From NCBI GenBank assembly GCA_018433885.1, contig JAHDQK010000003.1:62001-126000 (forward strand): a stretch of 64,000 nt of DNA, given 5' to 3'. Position 1 is the first letter of the stretch; each line of letters opens with the position of its first letter. Made by a program: the position numbers and the translations under genes. Below the pieces are notes generated by a model. It had not been told where the DNA came from and made no database searches. It saw only the letters and a program-made list of their open reading frames with translations. This stretch comes from Candidatus Cloacimonadota bacterium. GTDB taxonomy: Bacteria; Cloacimonadota; Cloacimonadia; Cloacimonadales; Cloacimonadaceae. Positions 13,198 to 36,337 of this stretch are shown here, piece after piece.

Positions 13198-13758
13198 CTA
13201 TCTCAGCTCGTTGAAAAATATTGACGACGTTGCCGTAGAAAATGTCCTTTCATAGTAATGATCTGGAGAATTACTGCTCCAATCCGCAGGCTTAGTGCTT
13301 GTTGGTCTTTTTGAAAGATGACCTCGTTTAAACAATATAAACCTTTCGTTTTTAACCTCATTCATTGATTTATTTCCAATAAAGACTTCTGCAAGGAGAC
13401 CACAGTACTTAATCAAGCATTGTGATGCCTTGAATTGAACCTTTGGTTTACTCCCTGGTTTGGTTGACTTCATCTCTATGTAATAAACGTAATTGTCACC
13501 ATTCTCTTCTACAAAAAGAACGTAATCACATCTTGATAACTCACCTTCTTTGCCAGACAGAAGACATTTTTTTGGGATAAATTCATCCAGTTTTACTGCC
13601 TTACTCGTTGAAGGTACATTACTGATTGTGACTTTTTTCAACTTGGCATTCTTACTCACTTCCTTCATAACAATGTAATACCTCCCATAGTTGTTCTTTT
13701 GAGGTTCTACTATGACATTCTCTACGAATAACTTGGATACTAGTTCTACAGGACTCAT
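13198..13758 (-). CDS. PD-(D/E)XK-type nuclease partnered with an ATPase
   Basis: A 186-residue protein whose ATG shares one base with the stop of the upstream ATPase (TAATG), so the two are translationally coupled. A restriction-endonuclease-like core is visible: a strand with D78 (ELSRCDYVLFVEE), a strand with E95-x-K97 (YVYYIEMKST), and a following helix with Q113 (QFKASQCLIKY). This D...ExK...Q spacing is that of the PD-(D/E)XK superfamily; catalysis is inferred. The N-terminal 60 residues are beta-rich and Lys-rich. In this context it is probably the effector of an ATPase-gated defence pair. I do not recognise a named system. Base composition is low in G+C. Confidence 0.65.
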   Translation of the reverse strand: MSPVELVSKLFVENVIVEPQKNNYGRYYIVMKEVSKNAKLKKVTISNVPSTSKAVKLDEFIPKKCLLSGKEGELSRCDYVLFVEENGDNYVYYIEMKSTKPGSKPKVQFKASQCLIKYCGLLAEVFIGNKSMNEVKNERFILFKRGHLSKRPTSTKPADWSSNSPDHYYERTFSTATSSIFFNELR

Positions 13759-15143
13759 TAGAGTTCTCCATAAAACAGGCTATCTTGTATCTCATTCATT
13801 TCATTAATAGTATTGTCAAAACTATCTAGCTCAAATCCGAAGCCATTGAATTCTGCTTTCTGAAATGTATTGCACCTAGTACGTCTAGTTTTACCTTCCA
13901 GCAATACTGGTTGAACTGATGCGATATATACTGAAACACGGTTTCTACTCAGCATATGAGTCCTATCATATCCATATTTCTGAAAGTACTGGAGCTGTTT
14001 GTCTCCTGGGATAGATTGCATTAATATGATATTGTTTAGCTCCTTAACAATGTAATCGCTGTGAGTTGTTACATAAACCTTGATGCCAATATGCACTAAC
14101 ATCGCAAACAATTGCATTAGTTTCCTTTGGTTTTCTGGGTGAAGATTTAGTTCTGGCTCATCTATCATTAGGAGATCACCTTTTTCAGCTACGTGCTTCA
14201 GATAGATAACCAAATCTATTAAAGATCTTACAGAACTAGAACTCTCGTTGATTTTTAACCTAAGCCTTTTATTTGCAATTGGAACATAGTACATTGAATT
14301 CTTTGAGTAAATGACATCTCCGCCCATAATACTAAACAAAAATTGGATAACATCTGGGTGTTCTCTTAGTACATAGCTCTGAGATTTGATTGATTCTTTT
14401 ATCTTGCGCACCGAATCCACTGCCCGATTTATTGGAATTGCATAATCCGTATTCACTTTTCGAAGGATCTCAAATGGATCTAGATCTCCTTCACTTTCCT
14501 TTAGTGTGTCTAGAAGTCTGTTACGTGCAAAATCAAGCTCTGCCTGAAATATCTCTATGCCTGTTCTTTCAGCAACTAAAATAACAGGATTCGGGAAAGT
14601 GTTTTTAAAGACGATTTTTTTTAAAGCAAAGCTAATTGACCTCTGTAGAACCCTGGACGGAATCTCTATTGCGCCCTTGTCTACAAGTAGTGAAACTGCA
14701 ACGACATCACTGTTTTTATCCTTGTGGATTGAAAATAAATTGACCTTGTTTGAGCCTGTTGTTTGATCGTATATATCCAGTGGTTTAATGTCATCATTAG
14801 TAAGAACAATTCGTAACGTGGCTTTAGTTAAGGATTCCTGATCAGAGGAGAATACTCTCTGAATCAACGGGTCAAATTTCTTGCATGCAACATCAACAAA
14901 ATGTTGTGCCTTGTTCACCAATTCAGTAATTGGCACGATGACATTTCCAGAATCTAGAAGGGTATTTATAATGTTATGATTTACCTCAAGTTCATATGCC
15001 TCCCACCAATAAGACAGGAATCCAAAGACCGTATAAGTAGCATAGGTTTTCCCTGTATTATTCTTTCCGCAAACTACCGTAAGATCAGATAGTTCAATGC
15101 TCGCACACTGCAAAGCACCCAAGTTCTCTAGTTTAAATACCAT
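13758..15143 (-). CDS. OLD/ABC-type AAA ATPase of a two-gene defence pair
   Basis: About 461 residues from the ATG at 15143 (GGGAGG just upstream; the in-frame TTG at 15155 lies within that ribosome site). Walker A is CGKNNTGKT (about 25-33). The second half has an SSSSVRSLI signature-like stretch, Walker B LLMIDEPELNLHPENQ and the H-loop VYVTTHSDYI, as in the ABC/SMC-like AAA_15/AAA_21 ATPases of OLD-type defence proteins. Unlike OLD and GajA there is no C-terminal TOPRIM nuclease; the nuclease is instead the next gene. The sampled G+C is about 33%, against 58% in the core. The family senses or processes DNA in several antiphage systems; the trigger here is unknown. Confidence 0.75.
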   Translation of the reverse strand: MVFKLENLGALQCASIELSDLTVVCGKNNTGKTYATYTVFGFLSYWWEAYELEVNHNIINTLLDSGNVIVPITELVNKAQHFVDVACKKFDPLIQRVFSSDQESLTKATLRIVLTNDDIKPLDIYDQTTGSNKVNLFSIHKDKNSDVVAVSLLVDKGAIEIPSRVLQRSISFALKKIVFKNTFPNPVILVAERTGIEIFQAELDFARNRLLDTLKESEGDLDPFEILRKVNTDYAIPINRAVDSVRKIKESIKSQSYVLREHPDVIQFLFSIMGGDVIYSKNSMYYVPIANKRLRLKINESSSSVRSLIDLVIYLKHVAEKGDLLMIDEPELNLHPENQRKLMQLFAMLVHIGIKVYVTTHSDYIVKELNNIILMQSIPGDKQLQYFQKYGYDRTHMLSRNRVSVYIASVQPVLLEGKTRRTRCNTFQKAEFNGFGFELDSFDNTINEMNEIQDSLFYGEL

Positions 15144-15190
15144 GTATCCTCCCAAACTTTCTAAGCTTAGAGTCGATTAATCTATATGTT

Positions 15191-20782: not shown

Positions 20783-21919
20783 ATGATTTACTTAGATTAT
20801 AGCGCCACTACGCCATGCGCCCCACAAGTCCTGGCTGCCATGGCACCCTACTTTCGTGACCGTTTCGGAAACCCCAGCAGCTCTCACGCATTCGGCAGGG
20901 AGGCAAAGGCTGCGGTGGAAAAAGCGAGATTGCAGCTTGCCGAGTTTGTCGGTTGCGGTCCCGGTGAAATAGTTTTCACCTCAGGAGCTACAGAAAGCAA
21001 TAACCTGATCTTCTTATCCTTATTGCTGGACGTAAAAGAGACAAGACGAAAGATCGCAGTGTCCGCAATTGAACACAAATCGGTGCTGCTTCCAGCCAAA
21101 AACCTCGGCACACGAGGTTTTGATCTAACCTTGCTGCCTGTTACCAGTAATGGAATTGTGGATATCAACGTCGCCCGAAAATTGATCACGGAAGATACAG
21201 CCTTGGTTTCCGTGCATACTGCCAACAATGAGATAGGCACCATACAACCTGTGAAGGAACTGGCAGAAATCGCCCATCGGGTTGGAGCGAAGTTTCATAC
21301 CGATGCCGCTCAAGCACTTGGGAAAATGCCCTTCGATGCTCAGCAATTAGACTGTGACCTGGCATCTTTTAGTTCCCACAAAATTTACGGCCCCAAGGGC
21401 ATTGGTGCTCTCTATATCAGAGGTGGGAGCCGTAAATGGCCTTGGGATTATCCTCTATACGGCGGGGGACAGGAATCGGGTATTAGACCAGGAACTTACA
21501 ATGTTCCAGCTATTGTTGGTTTTGGGGAAGCTTGCGATATAATGAGTCTTAATTGTAGTCATTTCCTTAGAAAGCTATCCAGTTTGACACAAGCATTCGA
21601 GAAACTGCTTTCTGCCCAACATAGTCCTTTTCTGATTCACTGCCAAGAATCACCCAGAATCGGTGGTTTATCTAGTATTTATTTGAATTCGCCAAAGGCA
21701 GAACTGATTTTAGAGCATCTTTCTGGAGTAGCCATAAGTAAAGCTTCGGCATGCAACTCAAGTTCATTGGAGAAATCCCATGTTATTCAAGCTATCAATT
21801 CAGACTATTCATTGTCAGATAAAACAATAAGAGTTTCATTTGGTTTGGAAACCGATGATTCTAATGTCGCAGATCTTTTTAATGATCTGATGAATTCAGT
21901 CCAGGTGATTCACAAGTGA
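20783..21919 (+). CDS. sspA: Cysteine desulfurase SspA (NifS/IscS/DndA-like)
   Basis: A 378-residue PLP enzyme that takes sulfur from cysteine. It has the family opening YLDYSATTPCAPQV, TSGATESNN, the PLP-site strand FHTDAAQALGK, the PLP lysine in SSHKIYGPKG, and the active-site Cys in the ASACNSSS loop followed by KSHVIQAI. It is encoded within the operon, whereas many Dnd and Ssp loci rely on a housekeeping IscS. From about 21530 to its end sampled G+C falls from 48% to about 35%, so the C-terminal third and the start of sspF appear to share a different history from the front. Its stop overlaps the GTG of sspF. Confidence 0.9.
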   Translation: MIYLDYSATTPCAPQVLAAMAPYFRDRFGNPSSSHAFGREAKAAVEKARLQLAEFVGCGPGEIVFTSGATESNNLIFLSLLLDVKETRRKIAVSAIEHKSVLLPAKNLGTRGFDLTLLPVTSNGIVDINVARKLITEDTALVSVHTANNEIGTIQPVKELAEIAHRVGAKFHTDAAQALGKMPFDAQQLDCDLASFSSHKIYGPKGIGALYIRGGSRKWPWDYPLYGGGQESGIRPGTYNVPAIVGFGEACDIMSLNCSHFLRKLSSLTQAFEKLLSAQHSPFLIHCQESPRIGGLSSIYLNSPKAELILEHLSGVAISKASACNSSSLEKSHVIQAINSDYSLSDKTIRVSFGLETDDSNVADLFNDLMNSVQVIHK

Positions 21920-24198
21920 GATACAATGGAGGAATGGTGATAGAAGAATTCTCAAAGTTAATTCATGGTCTTAGAAAAGACCAGCATTACAAGCCGCACA
22001 AACATATTTGTATGCTTGCAGCCATTATATACCTTGAAGAAAGAGAATTTTCCGAGAATAGGATACATTATAACGATGCCTTTAAGAGAATCTTTAGCTC
22101 ACTATTTCTGAAGTACTCAAAAGATGATGATAGGGATAGGTCTTATAACCCCTTTTTCCATTTACGATCATTACCCATATGGATTCTAGTCCCAAATCTT
22201 GGAAGAGAAAAGGAACTTGCTGAATCGACATCGATAAGCGGGCCATCTCATTTGATTACACTCGTCTCGTACGCTCATTTAAGAGATGAAGAATTCAACT
22301 TCTTAAAGATGGCAGAGCAAAGAAAAATCGTTAAACAGATTATTATCGACATATTGAGAGATTATGCCAATAATGATATCGATCAAGAACAACCTCAGAA
22401 TAGTGAGGGGGATAACGCACGAGGTGATTCAGTCTTGTTCTGTGATTATTTAAGTTCTCTGATTAGTACAAACATCTTCAATGAAAACGCCATAGCGGAA
22501 GCACAAGCTGTAAATCCACTCTTTGGGACCATTCACACGACGCACCCGCTAGTGCATATACTGGACAAGGAGTTAAGACAGAAAACAGGCAAGCATGTCA
22601 TTCTAACAGGACATGCCGGCGATGGCAAAACAACTATTGCAGTAGATATCATCAAACAATTGCGAGGCTTGCCGCTCTCTACCATGCTAGAAAAGCCGCT
22701 TAAAAGGCGAGAGGAAATTGAAGAGCACCGACTAAGCATCATCAAAGATTTCAGCGAGCGAGAAGGAAAAGCGGACCAAACCTTGATCGAAGAATTGAAA
22801 GCCGGACAACGCAGATTCATGATCATTTCTAACACAGGAACGCTGTTGGATTTCTTCAAGGGGAACGCACAGGCCTGGCAAATCAATTCTGTTGAGGCTG
22901 AGAGCAGGATATTGACAGCGATTAGCCAGAAGAAAGGTGCCGCTGAAGTGGAATTTGCGGGAGTGGAGTTCATCGTTTACAATCTGGCCTATATAGACAA
23001 TCTAAAGCTGGCAGAAAATATCTTTACGAGGATGCTGGAGCCCGAAAATTGGATAGGATGCGGTTCCTGCTCACGAGAGAGTTTCTGCCCCGTAAAGCAT
23101 AATGTGGAACTAATCCGTTCTGCCCAGGAGCAGGTGACACATAGGCTGTTCTTACTTTACAGGCGCTTGTATGAGTATGGCACCAGGCTAACCATCAGGC
23201 AGCTTACATCTCACTTGGCCTACATCATCAGCAGCGGGATCAATGCCGCAAATGTACACAAGAAGATGTCGCAGATGAAATCCGAATACCTTTTCTTTAA
23301 CAGGTTGTTCGGTGATGACGGTAAGAGCCCAGATGTCGCCGCAAGCGAGATGAAAGCGATTGTGGAGCTGAAACGGCAAAGCCTGGGCACCATATTCAAT
23401 TCCGGCATAGAGATGAATCTCTGGCTTAAGCCATCTGTTCATGGCACAATCAGGGTGCTACCTGCGGTTAAGGAGCTGTTTTCCGATATGCGCAAGAAAG
23501 GAATGGCATCCCTTACTGTAAGCGGAGCCGGATCTACGCCTGAGCAAGCCCGCAGACAATTGCGCAGACTCCTTTATTTCTTTGTGAACGATGAGGTTGC
23601 TGACTCCCAAGTAATGATCGATTTTCTAAACTCACCCAATATCTTGTATTGGCAGGAATGGCAACAGAAAGGGTCAGTATTGGATAAAGCATACCGTGCC
23701 AAATATACGAACATGGTCTTCCATGTTATACAAGAGCATTTTACCGGTGTGAGGATGCCGGAAGGCATGGGCACCCAAGACAGTAGATTGTACATCACAT
23801 TGTCCCGCAAGCAAAGCGAAGTACGGCAAAGCGCCCAGATCGTGATAGCCGAATTGGACTGGTCTCAGAGCGTGATTCTGGAACTTGATAGATCAAGCAA
23901 CGCGGCCGGAGCGGAATACGTTGAACTTGCCTTAAAAGGTCAGGGAGTGCTTAAGGGAGTAACTCTGAGGCTGGGCTTACCGTTTTTGGATTACGTAACC
24001 CATAGGCATTACGGTGAGATCGGAAACCTCTTGAACGCCGCATATAAAGAGCGGTTGGAGCATTTTAAGCTACAGGTGCTCAAGAAAACCGCCTCCCTAA
24101 ACGACGATATGATGCTGGTCAGACTACGCAATGACAACAGATTCAAGAGACAGAAATTCAGCATTAGCGACCAAGCAGTGGAGGTGTTTGATGTCTAA
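21916..24198 (+). CDS. sspF: SspF/DptF-like ATPase with extra N-terminal PT-reader-like domain
   Basis: A 760-residue protein from a GTG that overlaps the sspA stop (GTGA); an ATG at 21934 is possible but sits almost on its GGAGG. From about residue 195 it resembles DptF/SspF: Walker A GHAGDGKT (232-239) in ILTGHAGDGKTTIAVDI, and a Cys-rich stretch (IGCGSCSRESFCPVKH) that may bind metal. Residues about 10-130 look like the N-terminal domain of proteins named phosphorothioated-DNA-binding restriction endonucleases: YKPHKHICMLAAII, ENRIHYNDAF and NPFFHLRSLPIW. The DNA for this part is about 33% G+C at points sampled, against 50% for the ATPase. SspFGH is the restriction arm. Confidence 0.75.
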   Translation: MRYNGGMVIEEFSKLIHGLRKDQHYKPHKHICMLAAIIYLEEREFSENRIHYNDAFKRIFSSLFLKYSKDDDRDRSYNPFFHLRSLPIWILVPNLGREKELAESTSISGPSHLITLVSYAHLRDEEFNFLKMAEQRKIVKQIIIDILRDYANNDIDQEQPQNSEGDNARGDSVLFCDYLSSLISTNIFNENAIAEAQAVNPLFGTIHTTHPLVHILDKELRQKTGKHVILTGHAGDGKTTIAVDIIKQLRGLPLSTMLEKPLKRREEIEEHRLSIIKDFSEREGKADQTLIEELKAGQRRFMIISNTGTLLDFFKGNAQAWQINSVEAESRILTAISQKKGAAEVEFAGVEFIVYNLAYIDNLKLAENIFTRMLEPENWIGCGSCSRESFCPVKHNVELIRSAQEQVTHRLFLLYRRLYEYGTRLTIRQLTSHLAYIISSGINAANVHKKMSQMKSEYLFFNRLFGDDGKSPDVAASEMKAIVELKRQSLGTIFNSGIEMNLWLKPSVHGTIRVLPAVKELFSDMRKKGMASLTVSGAGSTPEQARRQLRRLLYFFVNDEVADSQVMIDFLNSPNILYWQEWQQKGSVLDKAYRAKYTNMVFHVIQEHFTGVRMPEGMGTQDSRLYITLSRKQSEVRQSAQIVIAELDWSQSVILELDRSSNAAGAEYVELALKGQGVLKGVTLRLGLPFLDYVTHRHYGEIGNLLNAAYKERLEHFKLQVLKKTASLNDDMMLVRLRNDNRFKRQKFSISDQAVEVFDV

Positions 24199-25798
24199 CT
24201 CAACCTTTCCTTACGATGCCAAATCGGAACAAGCATACAAGAGCAATCCTGCCATAAGGCTTTTTGGAAACAGATTTAGTACTGACCAGACAAGTTTAGA
24301 ATTGTTGGGCGAATTCTTACTGATAACTACTTCTGTAAAGGAGATCGAGGGCAAAGAACTGAGATCAGCTCTTCCCCCTTTGGATGACATCCATTCTTGG
24401 AGCAATTCCAAGTTAAAATACTCCCCAAAAATCAAATTGAATCTTAAGCTGTTTGCTTTCTTAAGTTCATCCAGACTGGATTCAAGACACCTTACCCACA
24501 TAGAGCATTACACCCAGCTAATACAGGAACTCAAAAAAAGAATCAAGGTAGATAGCAATGATAAGACTCAGGTAGTAAAGACACTTGAGAATTTACTACT
24601 TGGCTTTCAGGGTGCAGGAACAAGTCGAACATGGTGTGCACAGTCATTTATTCCCATTAGTCGTGGCCTAGTTGCTGGTGAAGCTATCTGGAATGAAACA
24701 AAGGCTAAAAGTCATTATGCAGAATCTTGGAGCTATGTTCTCGATAATGCCAAACTTTACTTTTCATTGAATAAACATAGATTCTTAGCAAGAGGAGGAG
24801 AACTCCTGTATCTACAGATATGCAATGCAATGAAGCAAAGCCCGGATGCAATACAATCCTGGAACCAGGAAGCAAAACTTGAATTCAGCACAGAAGAGTT
24901 AGAGCCGGGAAAGTTGCTTAACAGTTTGGAGAGGGGGCTGGCAAATTTTTTTAGCGCTTGTCCTAAGTTTATCGATGACCTGGCTGAGTTCATCGATGAC
25001 AAGCTAGATCCTGAAACAGCCGCAAAGACAGACATGCACGAACAGCAACCGAGGTTTGTAGAAGCCGGTTGGTGCAATAGCGCAACCTGGCAGGAAGGCT
25101 ACCTGTTGGCAGTGGAAATGAACAGAATATTGTCATCCGGCCTGGATGTGATGGACAGCGTTTACTACCTAGAGACCTTATTCATGCTGCATACCCTGAG
25201 GAATCTAATCATGCAGAGCTCCAGGTGTTTAAGCAATGGAGAAGCAAAATGGCCTGGCTACTATATGGCTATAAACAGGTCTGACGAGGAGAATGGGACG
25301 CTCAAGCGGATATCGCATCAGAGCCTCAAAAACATCGAAAAAACCATCTATATGGCTATCCGCTCGCATATGCAGGATACGGATATAGTTCAGGATGAGA
25401 AGATCCTCAAAGAAGCCGATACACGTTCCGGGCACAAGTTTTTCTTAAAAATGGCAAAGCAAGCCGGTTTGGTGATCCCCAAGCGGGGTGCTTGGGCTCG
25501 ATTTGTTTTAACTCCCCAGATACTCAGGGTGCTGGTAACTACCATTGTGCCGCAGCAGGGGAGGATAACATATGAAACATTTAAACAATTGATTAGAGCG
25601 AGGTGGGGCATGGTGTTTGACGAGGATGGATTTGGCGAGTGCTGCGAATGGCTGGGGGTGGAAAAGGTATATCTTTCCAGCGATACAGATGCCTGGCTAC
25701 TTGAAATGCTGGCAGAAAGCGGCCTCCTGATGCATTTGTCGGACTCCTGCGCCTTGGTGTTGCACCCCAACCAAGGGAATGATGGAGCTGGATCATGA
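24191..25798 (+). CDS. sspG: SspG/DptG-like restriction subunit
   Basis: About 535 residues from ATG 24191, which has GGAGGT upstream and overlaps the sspF stop by 8 nt; a frame opening at 24131 is inside sspF and is not used. No enzymatic motif is visible. The protein is soluble, mostly helical, with a short acidic segment in the middle and a winged-helix-like end. Identification as SspG/DptG rests on position between SspF- and SspH-like genes and on size, not on a motif. Sampled G+C is about 33% near 24550 and 53% near 25650. Its TGA overlaps the next ATG. Confidence 0.65.
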   Translation: MSNSTFPYDAKSEQAYKSNPAIRLFGNRFSTDQTSLELLGEFLLITTSVKEIEGKELRSALPPLDDIHSWSNSKLKYSPKIKLNLKLFAFLSSSRLDSRHLTHIEHYTQLIQELKKRIKVDSNDKTQVVKTLENLLLGFQGAGTSRTWCAQSFIPISRGLVAGEAIWNETKAKSHYAESWSYVLDNAKLYFSLNKHRFLARGGELLYLQICNAMKQSPDAIQSWNQEAKLEFSTEELEPGKLLNSLERGLANFFSACPKFIDDLAEFIDDKLDPETAAKTDMHEQQPRFVEAGWCNSATWQEGYLLAVEMNRILSSGLDVMDSVYYLETLFMLHTLRNLIMQSSRCLSNGEAKWPGYYMAINRSDEENGTLKRISHQSLKNIEKTIYMAIRSHMQDTDIVQDEKILKEADTRSGHKFFLKMAKQAGLVIPKRGAWARFVLTPQILRVLVTTIVPQQGRITYETFKQLIRARWGMVFDEDGFGECCEWLGVEKVYLSSDTDAWLLEMLAESGLLMHLSDSCALVLHPNQGNDGAGS

Positions 25799-28700
25799 AA
25801 TACATTGCGCGTTCGTTCAAAGATTACATCACAGGTAGGATAGAATCCCAGCTTCCTTCCATGGAATTGGGCGGGAAAATGATCTTCATGGTGGAAAGCA
25901 TCCCGGAAGATCTGACGATAGCTACTGCAGACCTTATCAGCAGTTTCTTACATAATATTGCTGATACCAATGTACTGATCAAAGTCGCCAGAACACTAAC
26001 CGATGAATGGTCAGACGAGGGCAGGGATAAGGCTGATAAGGCCGGGTGGTTGACCTTTCTGGACAATCTAGCTTATTACCGCAATGAGCCTATGCCCCCT
26101 GATAAATATAACGTGATCATCCTCTATGGGTCTGATGTGGTCACTGATTCCGCCAGTCTGGCAGATTTCAACCTTTGTAGTTTGAAGTTTGTTTGGGAAA
26201 CGGGAATGTCTCGTAGTTTCAGTCAGTGGGTTGTCGATAAACTTAGTTCCAGCGGCATAGATTTTTACAACAAAGCAGACATGCTGGTATTTGATAACAT
26301 CCTCTACCCTATCATCGAGCAGGGTAGGGCGGACCTGATATCCCTCAGCAAGTGGCTGGAGCGCTTGGACCTATCATACTGTGACAGCGTTCCGACAGTG
26401 TTAGAAGTGGTTTTGACGAAGCTACGGGATTTCCAACTACCCAATTTCACCAGCTTTCCCTATACTAGAAAAAACAAGAAATTCAATCCGTACGTCTATA
26501 AGGCTATTGAGTTCTTTAACTACACCATGTTCATTGAGGAAAACCAGAAAAGGAAGGCTGTAAAGGCCATTGATGGGATACTCGAAGCCATCGAGACCGG
26601 AGAAGAGGGATGGGAAGACCTGGAAAATGAACAGATTCGAGGCGCGTACAGTAGCGGAACGGAATTCTTGGGCGGGATGAAGAACTACGTCCTGACTGCT
26701 GACCAAGAGGAGAAAGAAAAGCTCCTGGAAAGCGATTTCGTCTTCATCTTGGACAAGATCCTGAAATTCAAGAAAAAGCAGGAAAAGAAGAAAACTAGCG
26801 TGAAGAGCCTGGAAGGAAGCCCGGTAGAAATTGTACTGACAGCCATGTGGGACAGTCTCTCAGAGTTTTCAAAGTCAAAAGATTATGGTAGCGTGGAAGA
26901 TCTAAGCAGGATAGAGATAACTGCTGACCTGTTCAAACATGACATGGAGTGGGATGACAGCGAGGGAGACTATTCCACCCAGGATGTCTCAGAACTGGCA
27001 AGAGAGTTCTTGCACAGGCTCATTGGCGGATTGGACAGCTTTATCATACAGCATACCTGCCTTAAGAACAAAGATGGCCTAGAGATTGAGATTCAGTGCA
27101 ACCTGGACAGCGATGAGATCAAATTCCGCTATAGCAGGACAGCGATCTCCGAACTGGTTTTCAGCGTGAACCTTTATGCACAGGAAGACGAAAAGCCGCA
27201 GGAAAGAAAATATGCCTGGAAACTGCCCTCCAACCATAGCTATCGCCTGGCAACAGATTTGATCAACATGGCCGCCGATGAATTGGATAGGCCAAACCAT
27301 GCGCTGGTATTACCCTTCTTCCACCTTCCCTATTATGACGAGATTCTTAAGACTTCATCCAATGACGAGCTGCGGAGGGTCTTCCTGCACAGCTTGAGAG
27401 ACTCTGCTTCAGAAGGGTCTTTCCTGAGAAATCTGTTGTCTGGGACTTGGCTGAAACATGACGATAGACTATTGCCCCATTATAGGAATCTTGCCGAGAA
27501 ATACCACCTGTTTATCAAAGCTGCCAAGAAAAGCGGATTGATCGCAGCTTTGACAGACACCTCGGTTTGGGACGTTCTGAGACAGCATTACGAAGAGGTG
27601 TTAGACCTGATAAGCACTCAGGAAGAGATGCTGAAATCTCCGATGGCTGGAATGATGCTAAGAGCATTTATGGTGATAAGAGAAAGAGAGAAAGATGGAA
27701 ATGAAGCATGGTATAGTGAGGCTTACGAGAAATCAGGGATCATCACGGTGCTTCACCCGTCTCTGCTGGAAATGCTGCAATCCCAAGTAGTTTACCAAAA
27801 CTCCTGTTTCAATTATGCCGTGAAAGCTGAAACCGAAAAAGACAAGAGGCGGGATGCCTTCAAAAAACACATTTGGCAATCCTATCTTGACCTTTCTCAT
27901 ATCAGAACACCCATAAACTGCATTCTGATCGATGATGGGCTCAATCTGAACACCAACGTTGTGGGGCATGAACTGATCCACAAAGTAGGTGATCCAATTG
28001 ATGGAGATGACCTAAAATCGACCAGGCTGATGCTGGGGATGTCTGATGAAAGCGATGATGAAATAGGCGATGTGAGCGATGCGGACATGTTCTTGGAAAC
28101 CCGGGAATCCAAACTGCTCAACAACCTCCTGTTAGACTATTTCAGGCTGCATCCCCACGCCAGGGATGGACTGAACTTAGCCGTTTATAGAAACCAGGAT
28201 ATTCAACCGATTATCGCAGCCATACACGCTTATCTAATGAAGCTTTCAAACATAAAAGATCCGAATTACTACGTTATTAGAAATGAGCGCAATAAGCCCT
28301 ACAATATCAGTGTGAGTATTTTTACCGATTCTGCTGACGATAGCGGCATAGCCCGATGGATAGAGCTTTGGAGAGAAAGATGGGAAGCGGCTGAGACTGA
28401 AAGCAAATTCCAAGTATACCGCAACTGCAGGTTTTCCATTTCGCACCGATTGATCAATACCGCCGACCATAACTCATTCTTGAGGATGATCAACGATAAT
28501 TTCAGCACCGATGTGACCATCCTGTATGACATAATCGGGACAGGAAACATCGCCGATAAGTTTAAATCCGTCGATCCCATGGACATCCGAACTCACTCTC
28601 TCAAATACCCCATCCTGGAGAAAGCCGTAGCTACGATCGACAATCCCTCTGATGAGTTTAAACGCTTCAGGATTATAAGCAATAGGCAGTTCAGCATTAG

Positions 28701-31218
28701 CTCACGGTTAGCGGGTTGCATGCATGCCCTAAAAAGTGGCAATGCCCAAAAAGGCACGGTAGTAATGGGCACCGGAGATCTCAAGCCCTGGATGGACGTG
28801 ATCGGGGCGATCCACAGCAAGTCGGAGTGGGTGATCTGCATCGATCCTAGTGTGGATGACCGCCTGATACGAGATTCAGGCAAGAAAAGCGAGCTGCAGA
28901 GGGAGATTATTGGTTTCGGCTCTGGAGTGGGCATTTCAGGTGAAGAAAACTACACCATATCGACCGAGCACTTTTCACTAAATGACATCGAAATCAGGCT
29001 GAGAGCTTCCATCAAGCAACTGCTAGCAGACACTAAATGGACTGAGGAGGACTATCAGGCTGTAGCCAAAGGAACCATGAAAGTAGCCCAAGAATTGTCC
29101 GGATTGTCGTTGGTACGTGCTACAGGGGCGGCAGACCAGTATATCAGAGATTTCATGGCATATGCCCTCACCCGTAAGATCGTGGGCAGAGATGATACTA
29201 TGTTGTGTGATAATCTGGTGACTCTCGATGCATACAGGCATTGGTTCGACTTTGCGGAAAGCGGAGTAAGGCCAGATCTGCTGTGGTTAAAGGCGAACAT
29301 AGGCCAGGATAACCGTGTGCACCTGAACCTGCATCTGATTGAGTGTAAAATGGGTAATAAATCGGAAGAACTGCTGATTAAGGCCAAACACCAGATCAAT
29401 AACGGGTTGAGTGTATTGGTAAAGGCATTCAAACCGAATTTCCAGGAGCAGCAAAATCTCGACGACGATAAGCCTGATCGCCGCTATTGGTGGATGCAAT
29501 TACATCGCCTGATAGCTGCTAAGGCCAGGATAGACAAATATCACGAACAGCAGGTCATCTCAGCGTTGGAGAAACTAGCCGAAGGAGATTACGAAATATC
29601 ATGGAGCGCTTCCGTGATGGCTTTCTGGATAGATGATGAGCATGGCACAATCAAGAAATCAGGTTCCTGGAACAACAATGAGACTTCTACTGGCAAGGCT
29701 AATGTGTTTTCGATAGGCAGGAATTACATCAAGGTACTTGCTCAATCTACAGATGAAAACACAGGAGTAATTGCTGAATTTCTGGATGAGCCTCTTTCAG
29801 AGGATGACAATGTCATGCAACAAATTGAAGACATCGACCTCCCCCCTAGTCCGGAGGATGAAGACTTTCAACCCGGTGAGACTCTGGCAGATTGGGACGA
29901 TGATGAGCCTGAAGATGATGGAGGAGATACTACGCCTAATTGGGATGACGATACAAGCCCTGAGCCCCCTCAAGAGGAGTCAACGGAAGACCAGCCTGAT
30001 ACTGAGCAAGAGCAGGAGGATGAAGAAGGCCATCGGGAAGACGATGATATTGTGTTGCCCAAGATTCCTGAGAGGATTCTCCTGGGCAAAACCACAGGTG
30101 GCAAAGAAGTCTATTGGGAGTTTGGGCATGATAGCTTAGCAAACAGACATATGGTGATATTCGGCACATCCGGAATGGGTAAAACATACGCAATACAATG
30201 CCTTCTATGCGAAATGGCCAGGCAGAACCAGAACAGCCTAGTCATAGATTACACAGATGGCTTTGTCCCAAACAACATAGAGACTGCTGCAAAACCGATT
30301 ATTACTAGTGATGGACAGACGTTCATATACAATGATCCACTTCCTATCAATCCTTTCAAAGCTCAAGTCAGCGAACAGGATGGGATGAAATTCAAGGATA
30401 CTCCAATCACAATCTCAAAGCGAGTATCTTCAATTTTCAAAAACGTGTATGACCTGGGAACCCAGCAGCTTCCTTTCACTATTGAAGTCATTCAAACCGG
30501 TATTGAACGATATGGCGATGAATTCAATCTGGACAAGATGCTGGAGATGTTTTATGAATACCTCGATGACCCATTATACACAAAGAACACTGTCCAGACT
30601 ACTATCACCAAATTGAAACCGTTTATTACAAGCAAACCCTTTCTGGTCGACAGCAGGGAAATTGGATGGAATGAGCTGTTTGCAGATGAAGAGAATAGAA
30701 GCAGAGTCTTCCAATTCCATAAAGTTGACAAGCACTCATCGAGGGCTATCATAGAATTTGTTTTATGGGACCTTTACAACTACGTTAGCAGCTATGGTGG
30801 TAAGCATTTACCCAAGGTCGTTGTGCTAGACGAAGTTCAAAACCTAGATCTGGGACCAGACGCGCCAGTGGCAAAGTACCTTACAGAAGGAAGAAAACAT
30901 GGCCTGGCCTTGATAACAGCAACACAAACTGTTAAAGGAGTTGGCGGTGTCTCTGATGCAAAGGTCAGTAGGCTATTTCAAGCGGAAATGAAGCTATTCT
31001 TCAAGCCCACAGAGAATGAGATGAAGGAGCACGCTCAACTGCTTAACAATGCTATTAGCGATATTCCGGTGAAGGAATGGACAAATCGGTTGGCAAAACT
31101 CCAAAAGGGTGAGTGTTGGGTTTTGGGAAGGCACCTGGACGATCTTTCTGGAGAACTGAGATTGAAAGCACAGAAGATTCGCATCACCTCCCTTGAAGAA
31201 AGAGGTTTCCATGGCTAA
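25795..31218 (+). CDS. sspH: SspH/DptH-like nuclease-HerA translocase
   Basis: An 1807-residue protein, the longest in the window. The first 1100 residues are helical and unassigned. A nuclease-like core follows at about 1158-1185: GVRPDLLWL supplies an Asp and LHLIECKMG the ExK, the PD-(D/E)XK pattern. A very acidic linker (about 1345-1425) joins it to a HerA/FtsK-type motor: RHMVIFGTSGMGKTYA (Walker A about 1456), PKVVVLDEVQNLD (Walker B) and LALITATQT. DptH-type proteins have this motor; coupling to a nuclease explains restriction of unmodified DNA. It overlaps sspG by 4 nt and the next gene by 8 nt. Confidence 0.8.
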   Translation: MKYIARSFKDYITGRIESQLPSMELGGKMIFMVESIPEDLTIATADLISSFLHNIADTNVLIKVARTLTDEWSDEGRDKADKAGWLTFLDNLAYYRNEPMPPDKYNVIILYGSDVVTDSASLADFNLCSLKFVWETGMSRSFSQWVVDKLSSSGIDFYNKADMLVFDNILYPIIEQGRADLISLSKWLERLDLSYCDSVPTVLEVVLTKLRDFQLPNFTSFPYTRKNKKFNPYVYKAIEFFNYTMFIEENQKRKAVKAIDGILEAIETGEEGWEDLENEQIRGAYSSGTEFLGGMKNYVLTADQEEKEKLLESDFVFILDKILKFKKKQEKKKTSVKSLEGSPVEIVLTAMWDSLSEFSKSKDYGSVEDLSRIEITADLFKHDMEWDDSEGDYSTQDVSELAREFLHRLIGGLDSFIIQHTCLKNKDGLEIEIQCNLDSDEIKFRYSRTAISELVFSVNLYAQEDEKPQERKYAWKLPSNHSYRLATDLINMAADELDRPNHALVLPFFHLPYYDEILKTSSNDELRRVFLHSLRDSASEGSFLRNLLSGTWLKHDDRLLPHYRNLAEKYHLFIKAAKKSGLIAALTDTSVWDVLRQHYEEVLDLISTQEEMLKSPMAGMMLRAFMVIREREKDGNEAWYSEAYEKSGIITVLHPSLLEMLQSQVVYQNSCFNYAVKAETEKDKRRDAFKKHIWQSYLDLSHIRTPINCILIDDGLNLNTNVVGHELIHKVGDPIDGDDLKSTRLMLGMSDESDDEIGDVSDADMFLETRESKLLNNLLLDYFRLHPHARDGLNLAVYRNQDIQPIIAAIHAYLMKLSNIKDPNYYVIRNERNKPYNISVSIFTDSADDSGIARWIELWRERWEAAETESKFQVYRNCRFSISHRLINTADHNSFLRMINDNFSTDVTILYDIIGTGNIADKFKSVDPMDIRTHSLKYPILEKAVATIDNPSDEFKRFRIISNRQFSISSRLAGCMHALKSGNAQKGTVVMGTGDLKPWMDVIGAIHSKSEWVICIDPSVDDRLIRDSGKKSELQREIIGFGSGVGISGEENYTISTEHFSLNDIEIRLRASIKQLLADTKWTEEDYQAVAKGTMKVAQELSGLSLVRATGAADQYIRDFMAYALTRKIVGRDDTMLCDNLVTLDAYRHWFDFAESGVRPDLLWLKANIGQDNRVHLNLHLIECKMGNKSEELLIKAKHQINNGLSVLVKAFKPNFQEQQNLDDDKPDRRYWWMQLHRLIAAKARIDKYHEQQVISALEKLAEGDYEISWSASVMAFWIDDEHGTIKKSGSWNNNETSTGKANVFSIGRNYIKVLAQSTDENTGVIAEFLDEPLSEDDNVMQQIEDIDLPPSPEDEDFQPGETLADWDDDEPEDDGGDTTPNWDDDTSPEPPQEESTEDQPDTEQEQEDEEGHREDDDIVLPKIPERILLGKTTGGKEVYWEFGHDSLANRHMVIFGTSGMGKTYAIQCLLCEMARQNQNSLVIDYTDGFVPNNIETAAKPIITSDGQTFIYNDPLPINPFKAQVSEQDGMKFKDTPITISKRVSSIFKNVYDLGTQQLPFTIEVIQTGIERYGDEFNLDKMLEMFYEYLDDPLYTKNTVQTTITKLKPFITSKPFLVDSREIGWNELFADEENRSRVFQFHKVDKHSSRAIIEFVLWDLYNYVSSYGGKHLPKVVVLDEVQNLDLGPDAPVAKYLTEGRKHGLALITATQTVKGVGGVSDAKVSRLFQAEMKLFFKPTENEMKEHAQLLNNAISDIPVKEWTNRLAKLQKGECWVLGRHLDDLSGELRLKAQKIRITSLEERGFHG

Positions 31219-32056
31219 GAAAGAAGTCAATACACGCTTGCCCAGGAACTTCCACCGTACTTTCAAACCGGAGCGGCAATATATCAATGCAATTCTAAAG
31301 TTTGCAGCTGAAGGCCGATCTGGCGATGCTCAAGCAATTTCTGACAAGACAGGGATTCCCACTGGTGAGTCATCAGGAAAAGTGCTTCCAACGATAGATT
31401 ATTGTCAGGGAATGGGCTTGATAACGACTAAAAGAAAGAAAGATATGTTAATAAGTCCGGAGTTAACAGATCTTGGAAGAGTGATCCTGAAGGAAGACCC
31501 CTTTGTAAAAACTGATGTGAGCCAATGGTTATGTCATCTTAACCTGTGTAACAAGTCTACAGGAGCTGAGCTTTGGCACTTTGTGTTTTGGTCAGGTTAC
31601 CACAGCCTGGGAGATAAATTTTCGAGAAACGACCTGGAAAACATGCTGGAGTCTAAGTACGGTAGCAGTAATCGCAGTTTAATTGGGCCTCTTCTCAGTA
31701 TGTACGAGGATGAAGCGTCTTTTAAGGTTTGTGGCGCTTTTCAAGATGATGGCAAGATGATCACTCGTAAAAAGGCACCAATCAAAGACGATCTGGCCAG
31801 GGGTTATGGAGCGTGGATTATAAGTTCGATGGAACTCTGGTTCCCAAAGCAGAATCAGGTTTCAACCGCTGAAATCGAACAGAAAACAGGATGGCTGACG
31901 GTTTGCAGGTGGCTGGGACAAGGAATGTCAGATATACTCGATATGGTCGAGAGAAAGGGAATTCTTAGGGTGGACAGACACATGAATCCTTGGATTCTGA
32001 GCCCTATGAAAACGGCTAGAGAAGCATACAATCAAATGTTCGATGATATGATCTAG
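31211..32056 (+). CDS. Second, diverged SspB/DUF4007-like protein
   Basis: About 281 residues from ATG 31211 (AGAGG upstream), overlapping the sspH stop by 8 nt. It is not a copy of sspB but lines up by eye along most of its length: an N-terminal helix-turn-helix-like part (AISDKTGIPTGESSGKVLPT), then LTDLGRVILKEDPFVKTDVSQWLCHLNL, which matches sspB's DPYLEDNNSYWLLHWKLN, then a helical region with SLIGPLLSMYEDEASF, and a wing-like C-terminal third. With the ATPase that follows it forms a second B-C-like module in the same operon. The function could be target choice or sensing; this is inference. Confidence 0.6.
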   Translation: MAKKEVNTRLPRNFHRTFKPERQYINAILKFAAEGRSGDAQAISDKTGIPTGESSGKVLPTIDYCQGMGLITTKRKKDMLISPELTDLGRVILKEDPFVKTDVSQWLCHLNLCNKSTGAELWHFVFWSGYHSLGDKFSRNDLENMLESKYGSSNRSLIGPLLSMYEDEASFKVCGAFQDDGKMITRKKAPIKDDLARGYGAWIISSMELWFPKQNQVSTAEIEQKTGWLTVCRWLGQGMSDILDMVERKGILRVDRHMNPWILSPMKTAREAYNQMFDDMI

Positions 32057-32071
32057 GGACTGGAGGAAATA

Positions 32072-35000
32072 ATGATCTTAAAGGACATCGTAAAGTTTAG
32101 GGGAGATAAGCTCTTCAATGGAGCTGTAAACATCGATTGGTACATAAGTGATCCTGACAAGTCACGATTAGCGGCTGAAGCATTTGTTTTTCATGGACCT
32201 GCCTATCATGGTGTTTCTCAGGATGAAGTAGGATATACTCATGGTCACAAGCTAATTGATACAGCAAGCTTCACCAAGGCAATAGTGAAAAGATCTTATG
32301 GCCATGAAGATGTCCCGTTTACATTGGCCATAGCAGGATATGGAACCGGAAAATCACACCTTGGTGTTACAATCGCGGAGTTACTGAGTGCTCCTGTAGA
32401 CAACACCCCCGCTGACATCCTTGCCAATATTTCATCTGCCGATAAGCAGATAGGTGATGAAATTGGGCTTTTACTCGATGATGCCGATAAACCCTGTTTA
32501 GTCATTGCTCTTAATGGACTCACAAAATTCGACTTTATACATGGATTATCCAACCAGATCATACAAGTTCTACGCAGGGATGGACATGACGTAAAACCAA
32601 TCGAAGATCTAAGACCCAGATTCCAACAAGCAGTCAGGATGCTGAATTGGGTCACCAGCCCCCAGTTACAGGAGGAACTGTCCGAGATTTGTGGAGGTGC
32701 TCGCCCGGCGGATATCATAGCATTGCTGGAACAACAGGATGAGGCTACATACATCAATGTAAACAAGTTCTTAAGCAAACATGATATGCAGATTAGAAAC
32801 CTACAGGGTGAATCAGTACAAGAGCTGATCGGCAGAACTGTAGAAGTCTACTGTGGCGAAGGAAATCCATATCAGTCCCTTGTCATCCTGTTTGATGAGT
32901 TTGGAAAATATATGGAATTCGCCTCCACTCGAAGTCATTTAGCCGGAAGCGGGGTCCTTCAAGAGCTATTTGAAGCCATACAAGCCTACTCACCTAAGGT
33001 CTGTTTCGTGGGTTTTATCCAGTTTGAACTGAATGCATATCTTCAACGTATGGCTACTGAGCAAAAAAACGAGATGCAGAGATACATTAGCAGGTATCAA
33101 ACTGCTGATAAGCTTTATCTGTCTACTAATCTTGAAACGCTCATTGCCAATCTGATCGAAAAGAAGAATCCCCATTATTTAGATCAAATCTTTGAGGGGA
33201 AATCAGCCTTCCAAACTTCAAATCTTGAACGAACGAAGATCAATGAGTGGTTTCCTAGCTCAAAACATATTCAGGTCTGGAATGATGCAGACCTATTTCA
33301 TAAGATAGTTAGCAAAGGATCTTGGCCCTTATCAGCATACAGTGTGTGGCTCCTTTACTACCTTTCTGCGGTTGGAAGCCATTTACAGGAAAGATCTGCC
33401 CTGGCTTTATTGATTGAAGCTTTTAACCAGTATGAATCGAGCCAGATATCAGAAGACAAAGACTGGAGGATTGCCGCTGTAGACATGATGAGCAATTCTT
33501 TTATCCAAGAACTACTGAGTTCTGAAGAATCTGGAGCGCAAGGAACCATCATGCAAGCATACCAGACAGTCATGTCGAAGTATGCTACAAAGTATTCTAT
33601 AAATCAGATAAGGATTCTAAAAGCAATCGTACTTAGTTCTAAACTAGGCTTGGTAGCAGCAAACCGGGCGGATGCAATCGAAGCTCTAGAAGCTTTGACC
33701 AATATGGACAAGACTGTACTGGCTGCAGAATTACTAACTTTGCTTGATGAGTACAACGCCATAGAGTGGGATGAGGCATACAAAAGCTTTGATATTCTTA
33801 GTGACGCGCTTCCCAGAAGTCAGTTCATCAATCACATCCGGAGGCTTTCAGCCAGTTATGATGAAAACGCCCAGTCTCAGTTATTCGTATCTTCCATCAA
33901 GGATTGTTGTGATCTGATCAAAGATATACAGAGTGATTTTGCTGAAGAAAACAAGATCAGCACCCCTGAGTGGGCTTTTCAGGCAAAAGTGGCAAACCTG
34001 GACACATTGCCTCAGCAGATCATACTTGAGACTGACAGATGGTCAAAAGCAGAGAGTATTGATGATCCCAGGGGATCAGTTATCTATGTTTACCTAGGGG
34101 AAACTGCTGATATAGACTGCGTTTCTCGAGAAGCTCATAAACTTCTCAAATCAGCCGCAGAGTCACTCAAGGTTAAAGCCGTTCCAATATTATTGGTGTT
34201 TCTGTATGATGTTGAAGCGAAACTGGGGCAAGGACTCATCGAGTTATCTATCCTGGATTCCCTCTCCAACGAAGAACTAGCAAAATTCGGCAATCTTGTT
34301 GAATCACATCGCGTGAAAATCGAACGTTCTATACAAGAAGCTGTAGAAGCACTATTGAAAGAGAAGAGGTATATCTCGCTGGGCGGAAAGCAAATGGAAG
34401 GATTGAGACTGAGTAAGGCAGCAACAGAGCTGTTCAAACAAATCTACACTCATCCTATTCTGTTTCCTTTTGATGGCTTTGCCACCTCTAGAGGAAACGC
34501 TGCTGACACTTGTTCCATGCTGACCCGAGAATTGATGCACTCTACCCTGGATTATAGCACGGTAATGGCGAAACCGGTAAGAGACAAGAATAGGGCAAAC
34601 AGCGTTCTCAAAGATGCTTGGGGTATATTCTCTGCAAATGGGAAAATCAACAGACGGCCTACCAATAACATTCTAAAGAAGCTTTCGATCGAATGGGATG
34701 AGATACTACAAGAACGGATGCTGTCCTTGCGCGAAATGTATGACACCATGATCAAGCCGCCCTTTGGAGCTAATCTAGACTCAGCCGGATTATTCTTGAG
34801 CGTTTACATCTCCCCACGCAGCAATACCTTAAACGTGTTCATAAATCAGCAGTATACGACTGTCAATGGGTGGGCAGACGACAATCTTATCAGATCAAAA
34901 CACTTCAATCCGTCAATCATGGACGGTGCCTATCTGCTCCTTAGATCTGATGACACTTCTGAGTGGGAAAACCTCCTAGACGAGTGGGAGCAAGCAGAAA

Positions 35001-36337
35001 GCCACATAGCCCGTGTAGATTGCATGGAGCGATCTGAAGTTCTGAAAGAAAAAATACCCGTGCCGCCAGAGCTTTTTCATCGAGAGCAAAGACTGACTGA
35101 GCAAGCAAATGAATCAGCAAAGAAAATTGATGAAATGGAAGAAGCAAAAGACGATGCGGTAATGAGGATCAAGAATAATACCGAGAGTGGAAATGTTATC
35201 CCATTATCTTGGGGCTGCTCTTCTCTAAAGCGCTTAATAGCTAAGCTAGAATCTGAAAAACCTCTGTGGATAGACGAACAGATCGATGATATGCGACCGG
35301 TTCTGGTTGAAGGCAGACAGACTATTATCCAAGTGTTTCCGGATTGGCTTGCTCATATTAGCCCCAAATCCGAATCTCCTGATCATGTGGGAGAGTTTAA
35401 GCATCTGATGCTGAATAAGGTCAAACCTAATCTGGAGGATCTCGGACTTGATAATGAAGCCAGTAATCTTGATGCTCGAGTTAGATCATTGATTCGTCGG
35501 GTAGAAGATGTAGCCGAGGCTCGTAGATTGATTAGTGAGGTTGATAATTGGATACGAATCAGCCATGGTGTCCTTGGCACCAATAGACTCAAAGATATCA
35601 GGGTAGCCAAAGATGTGGCCAAAAGCTATGCCAGTAAGCTCAAGGGCATGTTTCAGAGAATCAACCTTAACGAACTGATAGTTTTAAGAAAAAGCCTAAA
35701 AGAATTCTATGATACGTTGACTAACTCTGAAAAGGAAATCACGAAAAGAGCGGATAAGGTATGGAAGTCTAAGATAACAACTGAGGATTCAATAGATGAG
35801 TTGTTGGAGGAACTTGATTCTCTCATCAGAGCCTACGATGGACTGGAATCTGACCTGGAAGACTTTCATATATTAAAAAAGGCGCTACATCAGTTTAAAC
35901 GATCATACGGTAGATTAAGCGACATTAACCTAACCTGGAGTTCTTTTGATACACTCTCTAAAGAAGTTGAACAAGAGACAGTCTCCAAGCTAGCTGAGGA
36001 TGAACTTCCATGGCCACCCGAAGATGTGATCAAGAACATTGTCAAAACTATATCTGATTATCGTAAACAACTTAGCAAGGAGTGGATAGATGAGATCCTT
36101 GCAATTGAACCGGATATTCCAGAAATGGATGTTGCATCGGCCAACCAACTCCAGAATAAGTTGTCTAGTCCGCCAGCTTATGTCACTGATGCACACCTGA
36201 AGAAGCTTGAGAAGGTAAGAACCACTCTCGAAAAAAGGCTAAGCGAGATCAAGATAGAGTGGCTAGTGGAGAGGTTTAAGGAACTCTCTGAAAAGGACAG
36301 AAAGAAGGTTTTATCCCTTCTTTCGCAACAACAATGA
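32072..36337 (+). CDS. Second, diverged SspC-like P-loop ATPase with coiled-coil tail
   Basis: A 1421-residue protein from ATG 32072 behind GGAGG. Walker A is AGYGTGKSH (88-96) and Walker B is LVILFDEFGKYMEF (about 268-281), placed as in SspC (DEAGKSFEY), and a similar sensor region follows (FVGFIQFELNAYLQRM). The C-terminal 400 residues are charged and heptad-like (for example ITKRADKVWKSKIT, DELLEELDSLIRA), suggesting long coiled coils. The family also resembles the large ATPases of BREX (BrxC/PglY). Nothing in it looks like a nuclease. It ends the operon; AAAGAAGG/CCTTCTTT (36301-36323) inside its last codons can form a hairpin but has no following T-run. Confidence 0.65.
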   Translation: MILKDIVKFRGDKLFNGAVNIDWYISDPDKSRLAAEAFVFHGPAYHGVSQDEVGYTHGHKLIDTASFTKAIVKRSYGHEDVPFTLAIAGYGTGKSHLGVTIAELLSAPVDNTPADILANISSADKQIGDEIGLLLDDADKPCLVIALNGLTKFDFIHGLSNQIIQVLRRDGHDVKPIEDLRPRFQQAVRMLNWVTSPQLQEELSEICGGARPADIIALLEQQDEATYINVNKFLSKHDMQIRNLQGESVQELIGRTVEVYCGEGNPYQSLVILFDEFGKYMEFASTRSHLAGSGVLQELFEAIQAYSPKVCFVGFIQFELNAYLQRMATEQKNEMQRYISRYQTADKLYLSTNLETLIANLIEKKNPHYLDQIFEGKSAFQTSNLERTKINEWFPSSKHIQVWNDADLFHKIVSKGSWPLSAYSVWLLYYLSAVGSHLQERSALALLIEAFNQYESSQISEDKDWRIAAVDMMSNSFIQELLSSEESGAQGTIMQAYQTVMSKYATKYSINQIRILKAIVLSSKLGLVAANRADAIEALEALTNMDKTVLAAELLTLLDEYNAIEWDEAYKSFDILSDALPRSQFINHIRRLSASYDENAQSQLFVSSIKDCCDLIKDIQSDFAEENKISTPEWAFQAKVANLDTLPQQIILETDRWSKAESIDDPRGSVIYVYLGETADIDCVSREAHKLLKSAAESLKVKAVPILLVFLYDVEAKLGQGLIELSILDSLSNEELAKFGNLVESHRVKIERSIQEAVEALLKEKRYISLGGKQMEGLRLSKAATELFKQIYTHPILFPFDGFATSRGNAADTCSMLTRELMHSTLDYSTVMAKPVRDKNRANSVLKDAWGIFSANGKINRRPTNNILKKLSIEWDEILQERMLSLREMYDTMIKPPFGANLDSAGLFLSVYISPRSNTLNVFINQQYTTVNGWADDNLIRSKHFNPSIMDGAYLLLRSDDTSEWENLLDEWEQAESHIARVDCMERSEVLKEKIPVPPELFHREQRLTEQANESAKKIDEMEEAKDDAVMRIKNNTESGNVIPLSWGCSSLKRLIAKLESEKPLWIDEQIDDMRPVLVEGRQTIIQVFPDWLAHISPKSESPDHVGEFKHLMLNKVKPNLEDLGLDNEASNLDARVRSLIRRVEDVAEARRLISEVDNWIRISHGVLGTNRLKDIRVAKDVAKSYASKLKGMFQRINLNELIVLRKSLKEFYDTLTNSEKEITKRADKVWKSKITTEDSIDELLEELDSLIRAYDGLESDLEDFHILKKALHQFKRSYGRLSDINLTWSSFDTLSKEVEQETVSKLAEDELPWPPEDVIKNIVKTISDYRKQLSKEWIDEILAIEPDIPEMDVASANQLQNKLSSPPAYVTDAHLKKLEKVRTTLEKRLSEIKIEWLVERFKELSEKDRKKVLSLLSQQQ

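Follow-up and report, generated by a model that had tools for sequence, protein, structure and literature searches.

Organization of the operon

The window, a stretch of 64,000 nucleotides from a Candidatus Cloacimonadota contig, contains nine co-directional genes that form one operon at 15662-36337 on the forward strand, in the order sspB, sspC, sspD, sspA, sspF, sspG, sspH, p2B and p2C (Table 1). Operons of the Ssp immune type mark the cell's own DNA with sulfur and attack unmarked DNA. SspA, SspB, SspC and SspD were named firmly by PADLOC, with one SspD and one SspA as a previous reading of the bare sequence (the sequence-only reading) had noted, whereas the matches of SspF, SspG and SspH were weaker and all partial. 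SspH, the third effector protein, has a HerA-type C-terminus, which made DndH its best-scoring model. The first start codon in the sspG frame is found at 24131; homologues start at 24191 in the SspG alignment.

Table 1. Genes of the operon and the evidence for their assignment
Feature	Coordinates	Strand	Evidence
sspB (modification side), DUF4007, 295 aa	15662..16549	+	Pfam DUF4007 1.8e-71; PADLOC SspB 5e-75
sspC (modification side), Orc/Cdc6-type ATPase, 1131 aa	16546..19941	+	PADLOC SspC 1.4e-273
sspD, PAPS-reductase-like sulfurtransferase, 271 aa	19964..20779	+	PADLOC SspD 8.7e-109
sspA, cysteine desulfurase, 378 aa	20783..21919	+	PADLOC SspA 1.4e-125
sspF, pair-bearing subtype, Walker A GHAGDGKT	21916..24198	+	PADLOC SspF 1.3e-32
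sspG, pair-bearing subtype	24191..25798	+	PADLOC SspG 1.3e-17, C-terminal part only
sspH, PD-(D/E)xK-like motif and C-terminal HerA/DUF87 translocase	25795..31218	+	DndH 5.3e-55; SspH 5.6e-16; DUF87 2.9e-9
p2B, second DUF4007 gene (P0008), 281 aa, SspB fold	31211..32056	+	Pfam DUF4007 1e-8; predicted structure; profile comparison
p2C, second SspC/BrxC-like AAA+ ATPase gene (P0009), 1421 aa	32072..36337	+	PADLOC SspC 1.6e-13; profile comparison; predicted structure

The Walker A motif of SspF was kept in 51 of 53 homologues. The PD-(D/E)xK-like motif of SspH consists of P1160-D1161 and E1183-C-K1185; the E-C-K part was present in all 49 homologues and the D in 48 of them, and the HerA motor was conserved as well. 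Because of this conservation the cutting and pulling parts of the system probably reside in FGH, with SspH as the probable nuclease-translocase.

The ATG of p2B at 31211 precedes the end of sspH at 31218, giving an overlap of 8 nt. The p2C ATG (32072) lies beyond a gap of 15 nt from the p2B stop (32056) and immediately follows a GGAGGA sequence. The sequence-only reading had described an extra module at 31211-36337 fused to the end of the operon. Its coordinates, overlap and gap were confirmed; the genes are adjacent, co-directional and overlapping, but not fused. The G+C content of the operon (0.43-0.49) is below that of most of its flanks (about 0.50-0.55), and the genes on its 3' side appear unrelated. 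Promoter and terminator scans gave matches at chance level. A promoter-like match, TTGACA-16-TATCAT, lies within sspH at 30725-30752 (+), about 460 nt 5' of the pair; matches of this kind are about as numerous as expected by chance. Adjoining the operon at 13198-15155 (-) are two genes, an AAA_15/AAA_21 ATPase and a partner, that match the PADLOC candidates PDC-M47 A/B (6.7e-159 and 1.8e-24) as well as PD-T4-4 A/B.

Identity of the second DUF4007 protein and the second ATPase

Pairwise BLASTP of the two proteins against the operon's own copies was weak (5e-4 for p2B and SspB, 0.025 for p2C and SspC), too weak to decide on homology, which was therefore judged from profiles and structures. p2B exceeded the Pfam DUF4007 cut-off (35.1 bits against 27, E 1e-8) and also matched the PADLOC SspB models. 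Profile comparisons gave E 6e-20 for p2B with modification SspB and E 1e-33 for p2C with modification SspC. The AlphaFold2 model of p2B (pLDDT 94, built with 26 sequences) had the solved SspB structure 6juf as top match in the PDB (E 2e-7, TM 0.69) and as the sole match below E 0.001, so that the structural relation to DUF4007 on which the sequence-only reading had staked its proposal is present. For residues 1-1060 of p2C, modelled with pLDDT 86 and pTM 0.52, the top match was BrxC (9zll, E 7e-10), followed by ORC. Its Walker A (GYGTGKSH, 89-96) and Walker B (ILFDEFGKY, 272-280) motifs are essentially invariant among 60 homologues. In the family scan, p2B and p2C matched no nuclease family and showed no sensor domain.

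As judged from these profiles and predicted structures, p2B and p2C are homologous to SspB and SspC, in agreement with the layout read earlier from the sequence. They also recall BREX: the p2C model best matches BrxC, and the DUF4007 family of p2B has been described as BrxA-like (PMC12839542). The window operon, however, contains no BrxB and no methyltransferase, and PglZ and BrxL were not found in it by Pfam and PADLOC scans.

Recurrence of the gene order

Scanning 84,980 species genomes for relatives of p2C yielded 80 loci in Desulfobacterota, Bacillota, Chloroflexota, Verrucomicrobiota, Acidobacteria, Bacteroidota, Spirochaetes and other phyla. Many come from metagenome-assembled genomes, and E-values of the collection scan relate to candidates only. 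Being seeded by p2C, the scan shows where this type of ATPase occurs and not how often FGH is without the pair. When the genes were labelled with profiles derived from the proteins of the window, sspH was the next gene before p2B in 74 of the 80 loci, a recurrence that exceeds chance. The two genes directly abut in 69 of these 74 junctions (-185 to +38 nt, the large overlaps partly reflecting the choice of the first start codon), with a mode of -8 as in the window, whose exact 8-nt overlap was seen in 26 loci. Other genes intervene in the remaining five, HEC-01-like in two and BrxD/BrxH-like in three Thiocapsa loci. Among the six loci without the sspH-p2B order, four are truncated by contig ends, sspH is missing from L087, and L090 belongs to the PglZ-BrxL type; L087 is the only evaluable locus with the pair but with neither FGH nor PglZ-BrxL.

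The modification genes sspB-sspC-sspD stand before F-G-H wherever upstream DNA was fetched, including loci of Desulfobacterota, Verrucomicrobia, Spirochaetes, Firmicutes and Thiocapsa; some Bacillota have a long version of SspD. A search with the window's SspD detected this protein in 37 of 50 carrier genomes. The survey that the sequence-only reading had proposed thus shows the pair beside phosphorothioate (PT) genes and not mostly apart from them. In L036 the modules are rearranged, F-G-H-p2B-p2C being followed by D-B-C-A, and the pair remains with FGH.

In a small converse sample of 502 genomes, window-type SspG was detected in 3 of 247 Desulfobacterota and 2 of 255 Clostridia, and all five genomes contained p2C; an additional p2C sits at the end of its contig, where p2B follows sspH. 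This co-occurrence is supportive but not strong, since at least three of these five were already among the carriers from the p2C scan, two of them as sample centres. Every FGH of the window type that was examined has the pair.

In two Desulfobulbaceae loci (L061:7312-9137 and L082:4649-6444; the family scan covered L061), the sspH-p2B junction is the exact insertion site of HEC-01 A/B-like genes, which encode an AAA_21 ATPase and a DUF4276 protein. In Thiocapsa (L056:1705-8733, also L057 and L077; the family scan covered L056) this place is taken by three BrxD-like ATPases, a BrxHI/SngC-like helicase and a further protein of 269 aa.

Canonical SspFGH loci

The SspABCD-SspFGH system of Vibrio anguillarum FF-93 has sspBCD(A) followed by F-G-H, and the window shares both the modification genes and the ordered effector genes next to them. 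The canonical effector, however, consists of three genes without partners, whereas the window type has the pair after sspH, and canonical SspH is annotated as FtsK/SpoIIIE, whereas SspH of the window is a DUF87/HerA protein with DndH as best model. The second DUF4007/ATPase pair was absent from six canonical loci (L130-L133, L142 and L143), which are found on plasmids of Agrobacterium, Azospirillum, Hymenobacter and Chlorohelix and in two Gammaproteobacteria; the latter two were the full-length matches used (L109/L142 and L110/L143) from a PADLOC SspH search of Gammaproteobacteria that otherwise gave mostly FtsK-like noise. Since these loci have no pair and their SspG and SspH match the window-type profiles at only about 32-108 bits, FGH falls into two subtypes, pair-bearing and canonical. 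Damage by FGH to DNA lacking phosphorothioate has been shown only for FF-93, and canonical SspFGH of this strain protects without a second pair (PMC8092258); FGH therefore need not require it.

Relatives of the pair beside PglZ-BrxL

In Thermomicrobium roseum and Pseudanabaena galeata, the genes downstream of sspB-sspC-sspD encode, in this order, a second DUF4007 protein, a small protein, a second ATPase, PglZ, BrxL and a cysteine desulfurase. A second pair adjoins PglZ-BrxL also in L090. As in the window, these Ssp/BREX type-4-like loci combine the modification genes with a second DUF4007 protein and a second ATPase of 1400-1800 aa, but their pair is split by the small gene and followed by PglZ-BrxL, whereas the window pair is preceded by FGH. 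The PglZ-side proteins align with p2B and p2C over nearly their full length (E 8e-30 for DUF4007, E 8e-65 for the ATPase). With group sizes evened, p2C matched the PglZ-side second ATPase at E 4e-46, whereas their matches to modification SspC had E 3e-9 and 1e-21; the corresponding DUF4007 values were 2e-29 between the second proteins, and 7e-12 and 1e-22 against modification SspB. The unrooted ATPase tree placed p2C, the PglZ-side second ATPase and modification SspC in one clade each and does not give sister groups; the profile scores suggest that p2C and the PglZ-side ATPase are sisters. By sequence comparison, the closest relatives of the pair outside FGH loci are the second DUF4007 and ATPase pairs of Ssp/BREX-4-like loci.

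Among the PADLOC models, none fits the second ATPase of PglZ-type loci, and a BREX survey gives type 4 one DUF4007 protein and one BrxC (PMC12839542). L008:11206-26769 and L010:11019-29613 are Ssp/BREX type-4-like loci with two DUF4007 and ATPase pairs. On an Annamia plasmid (L009:2507-15295), such a locus has a fragmented second ATPase whose pieces are separated by transposase-like open reading frames.

The window operon shares the PAPS reductase, DUF4007 and a BrxC/SspC-type ATPase with BREX type 4, but lacks its PglZ and BrxL. With the HerA/FtsK capture and BRC systems (PMC10853773, PMC12839542) it has in common a HerA motor, an Orc/Cdc6 ATPase and a tandem wHTH protein; as described, however, these systems are without SspBCDA plus FGH, and BRC has PglZ, DUF6079 and a STAND NTPase, whereas none of the nine operon proteins matched PglZ or DUF6079 in the family scan. 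The pair matches no named system in the open-access literature, as the sequence-only reading had supposed. PglZ-domain open reading frames are present on other contigs of the window's genome; on contig G000:C84 (L149:7977-12577) one of 823 aa adjoins a BrxL-like open reading frame of 692 aa, probably as a separate BREX locus.

Probable assignment of the pair to the effector module

Distance matrices of full-length proteins from 14 genomes revealed two co-divergence blocks, one of p2B, p2C, SspF, SspG and SspH (r 0.81-0.96) and one of SspB, SspC and SspD (r 0.78-0.91), with correlations of 0.57-0.75 between them. The pair correlated with F/G/H at r 0.86-0.96 and with SspB/C/D at 0.60-0.74. When genomes were bootstrapped, the difference (versus SspC and SspD) was positive in 98.6% of draws; its interval, 0.008-0.68, is wide and almost reaches zero at the lower end. 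SspC was labelled with seeded profiles, an iterative SspC profile having drifted into p2C. Joint transfer of the gene block could account for part of the co-divergence between pair and FGH, and the defence genes that separate sspH from the pair in Thiocapsa, L061 and L082 also speak against a dedicated tie. Together with the gene order and the arrangement in L036, the tracking of F/G/H supports the link of the pair to SspFGH that had been among the proposals of the sequence-only reading.

From the computed homology, operon conservation and co-divergence we infer a targeting or licensing role. With some reserve, the pair is probably a paralogue of SspBC on the restriction side, an ATP-driven DNA-scanning or licensing unit devoted to the FGH effector of its own operon. 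We favor this assignment because the pair combines an ATPase and a DNA-binding fold without a nuclease, because the cutting and pulling parts lie probably in FGH, and because BrxC sets a precedent: it is a DNA-binding protein that, through BrxB, enters ATP-dependent complexes with the PglZ nuclease (PMC13326643). p2B, an SspB/BrxA-like tandem helix-turn-helix protein, would scan DNA, and p2C, a BrxC/ORC-like AAA+ protein, would assemble on DNA under ATP control; together they would load or license FGH for DNA without the phosphorothioate mark. SspBC would play the same part for SspD on host DNA, the system then having two parallel targeting pairs, one that marks and one that attacks.

An unlikely alternative is that the pair is a regulator or sensor that keeps FGH inactive on the sparsely marked chromosome until a phage signal frees it, with no loading on DNA. 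Precedents exist in BREX, where BrxA inhibits DNA binding by BrxC and BrxB competes with BrxC self-association (PMC13326643); FGH alone is toxic when PT is absent (PMC8092258), and the co-divergence of pair and FGH fits equally. Against it stand the lack of a sensor domain in the family scan and the control of canonical FGH without a pair.

That the pair uses the shared SspD and SspA to place PT at another motif, a second specificity as raised by the sequence-only reading, appears distinctly improbable. Its fold and ATPase homology to SspBC, the single SspD and SspA of the operon and the retention of D83, H96 and Y158 in p2B are in line with such a function. The divergence of the pair, however, tracks F/G/H more than SspB/C/D, gene order holds it with FGH (L036 included), and related pairs adjoin PglZ-BrxL. 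In addition, although p2B shares the fold of modification SspB, the protein that nicks DNA for PT insertion, it has lost the R17/W20/K23 signature, defined in this analysis, which is near-invariant in modification SspB (26-27 of 28) and replaced by E/Y/A in most of the 80 p2B proteins. Taken by itself, this change would indicate only that the two DUF4007 groups face different constraints.

The sequence-only reading had also considered a nested defence of its own. We give very little credence to this, or to a hitchhiker merely on the shared transcript: the sspH-p2B junction does host other defence genes, but such inserts occur in only five loci while the pair accompanies every window-type FGH examined, no nuclease family was matched in the pair, and L087 alone has it without FGH or PglZ-BrxL. 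A functionless relict of an ancestral Ssp/BREX-4-like locus in which FGH replaced PglZ-BrxL would fit the related pairs beside PglZ-BrxL and the missing PglZ of the window operon, but is scarcely credible given the essentially invariant Walker motifs of p2C and the intact pairs in many phyla.

Returning to the restriction-side assignment, the pair would in the relatives serve PglZ-BrxL instead of FGH. More tentatively, and with doubt slightly outweighing confidence, PT systems may be able to run two AAA+/DNA-reader pairs, the attack-side one being an exchangeable adaptor for unrelated effectors, either the FGH nuclease-translocase or PglZ-BrxL. If true, this would explain the reading of sparse marks and give Ssp-FGH and type-4-BREX-like systems a shared architecture, linking two effector types regarded as separate. 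A restriction-side copy of the marking pair would be a concrete candidate reader for self and non-self where few sites carry sulfur. Defence catalogues miss this recurrent part: PADLOC has no model for the PglZ-side ATPase and labels p2C only weakly as SspC.

Variants among the surveyed loci

In L091:3821-7927 (-), the locus covered by the domain scan, SspF is N-terminally fused to a NERD nuclease domain and protein kinase domains in a PglW-like manner; long sspF genes also occur in L094, L103, L108 and L145. The pair ATPases of L028 and L029, from metagenome-assembled genomes labelled Syntrophaceae and Bacteroidota, are near-identical (branch lengths <0.001), which may reflect recent transfer or mis-binning.
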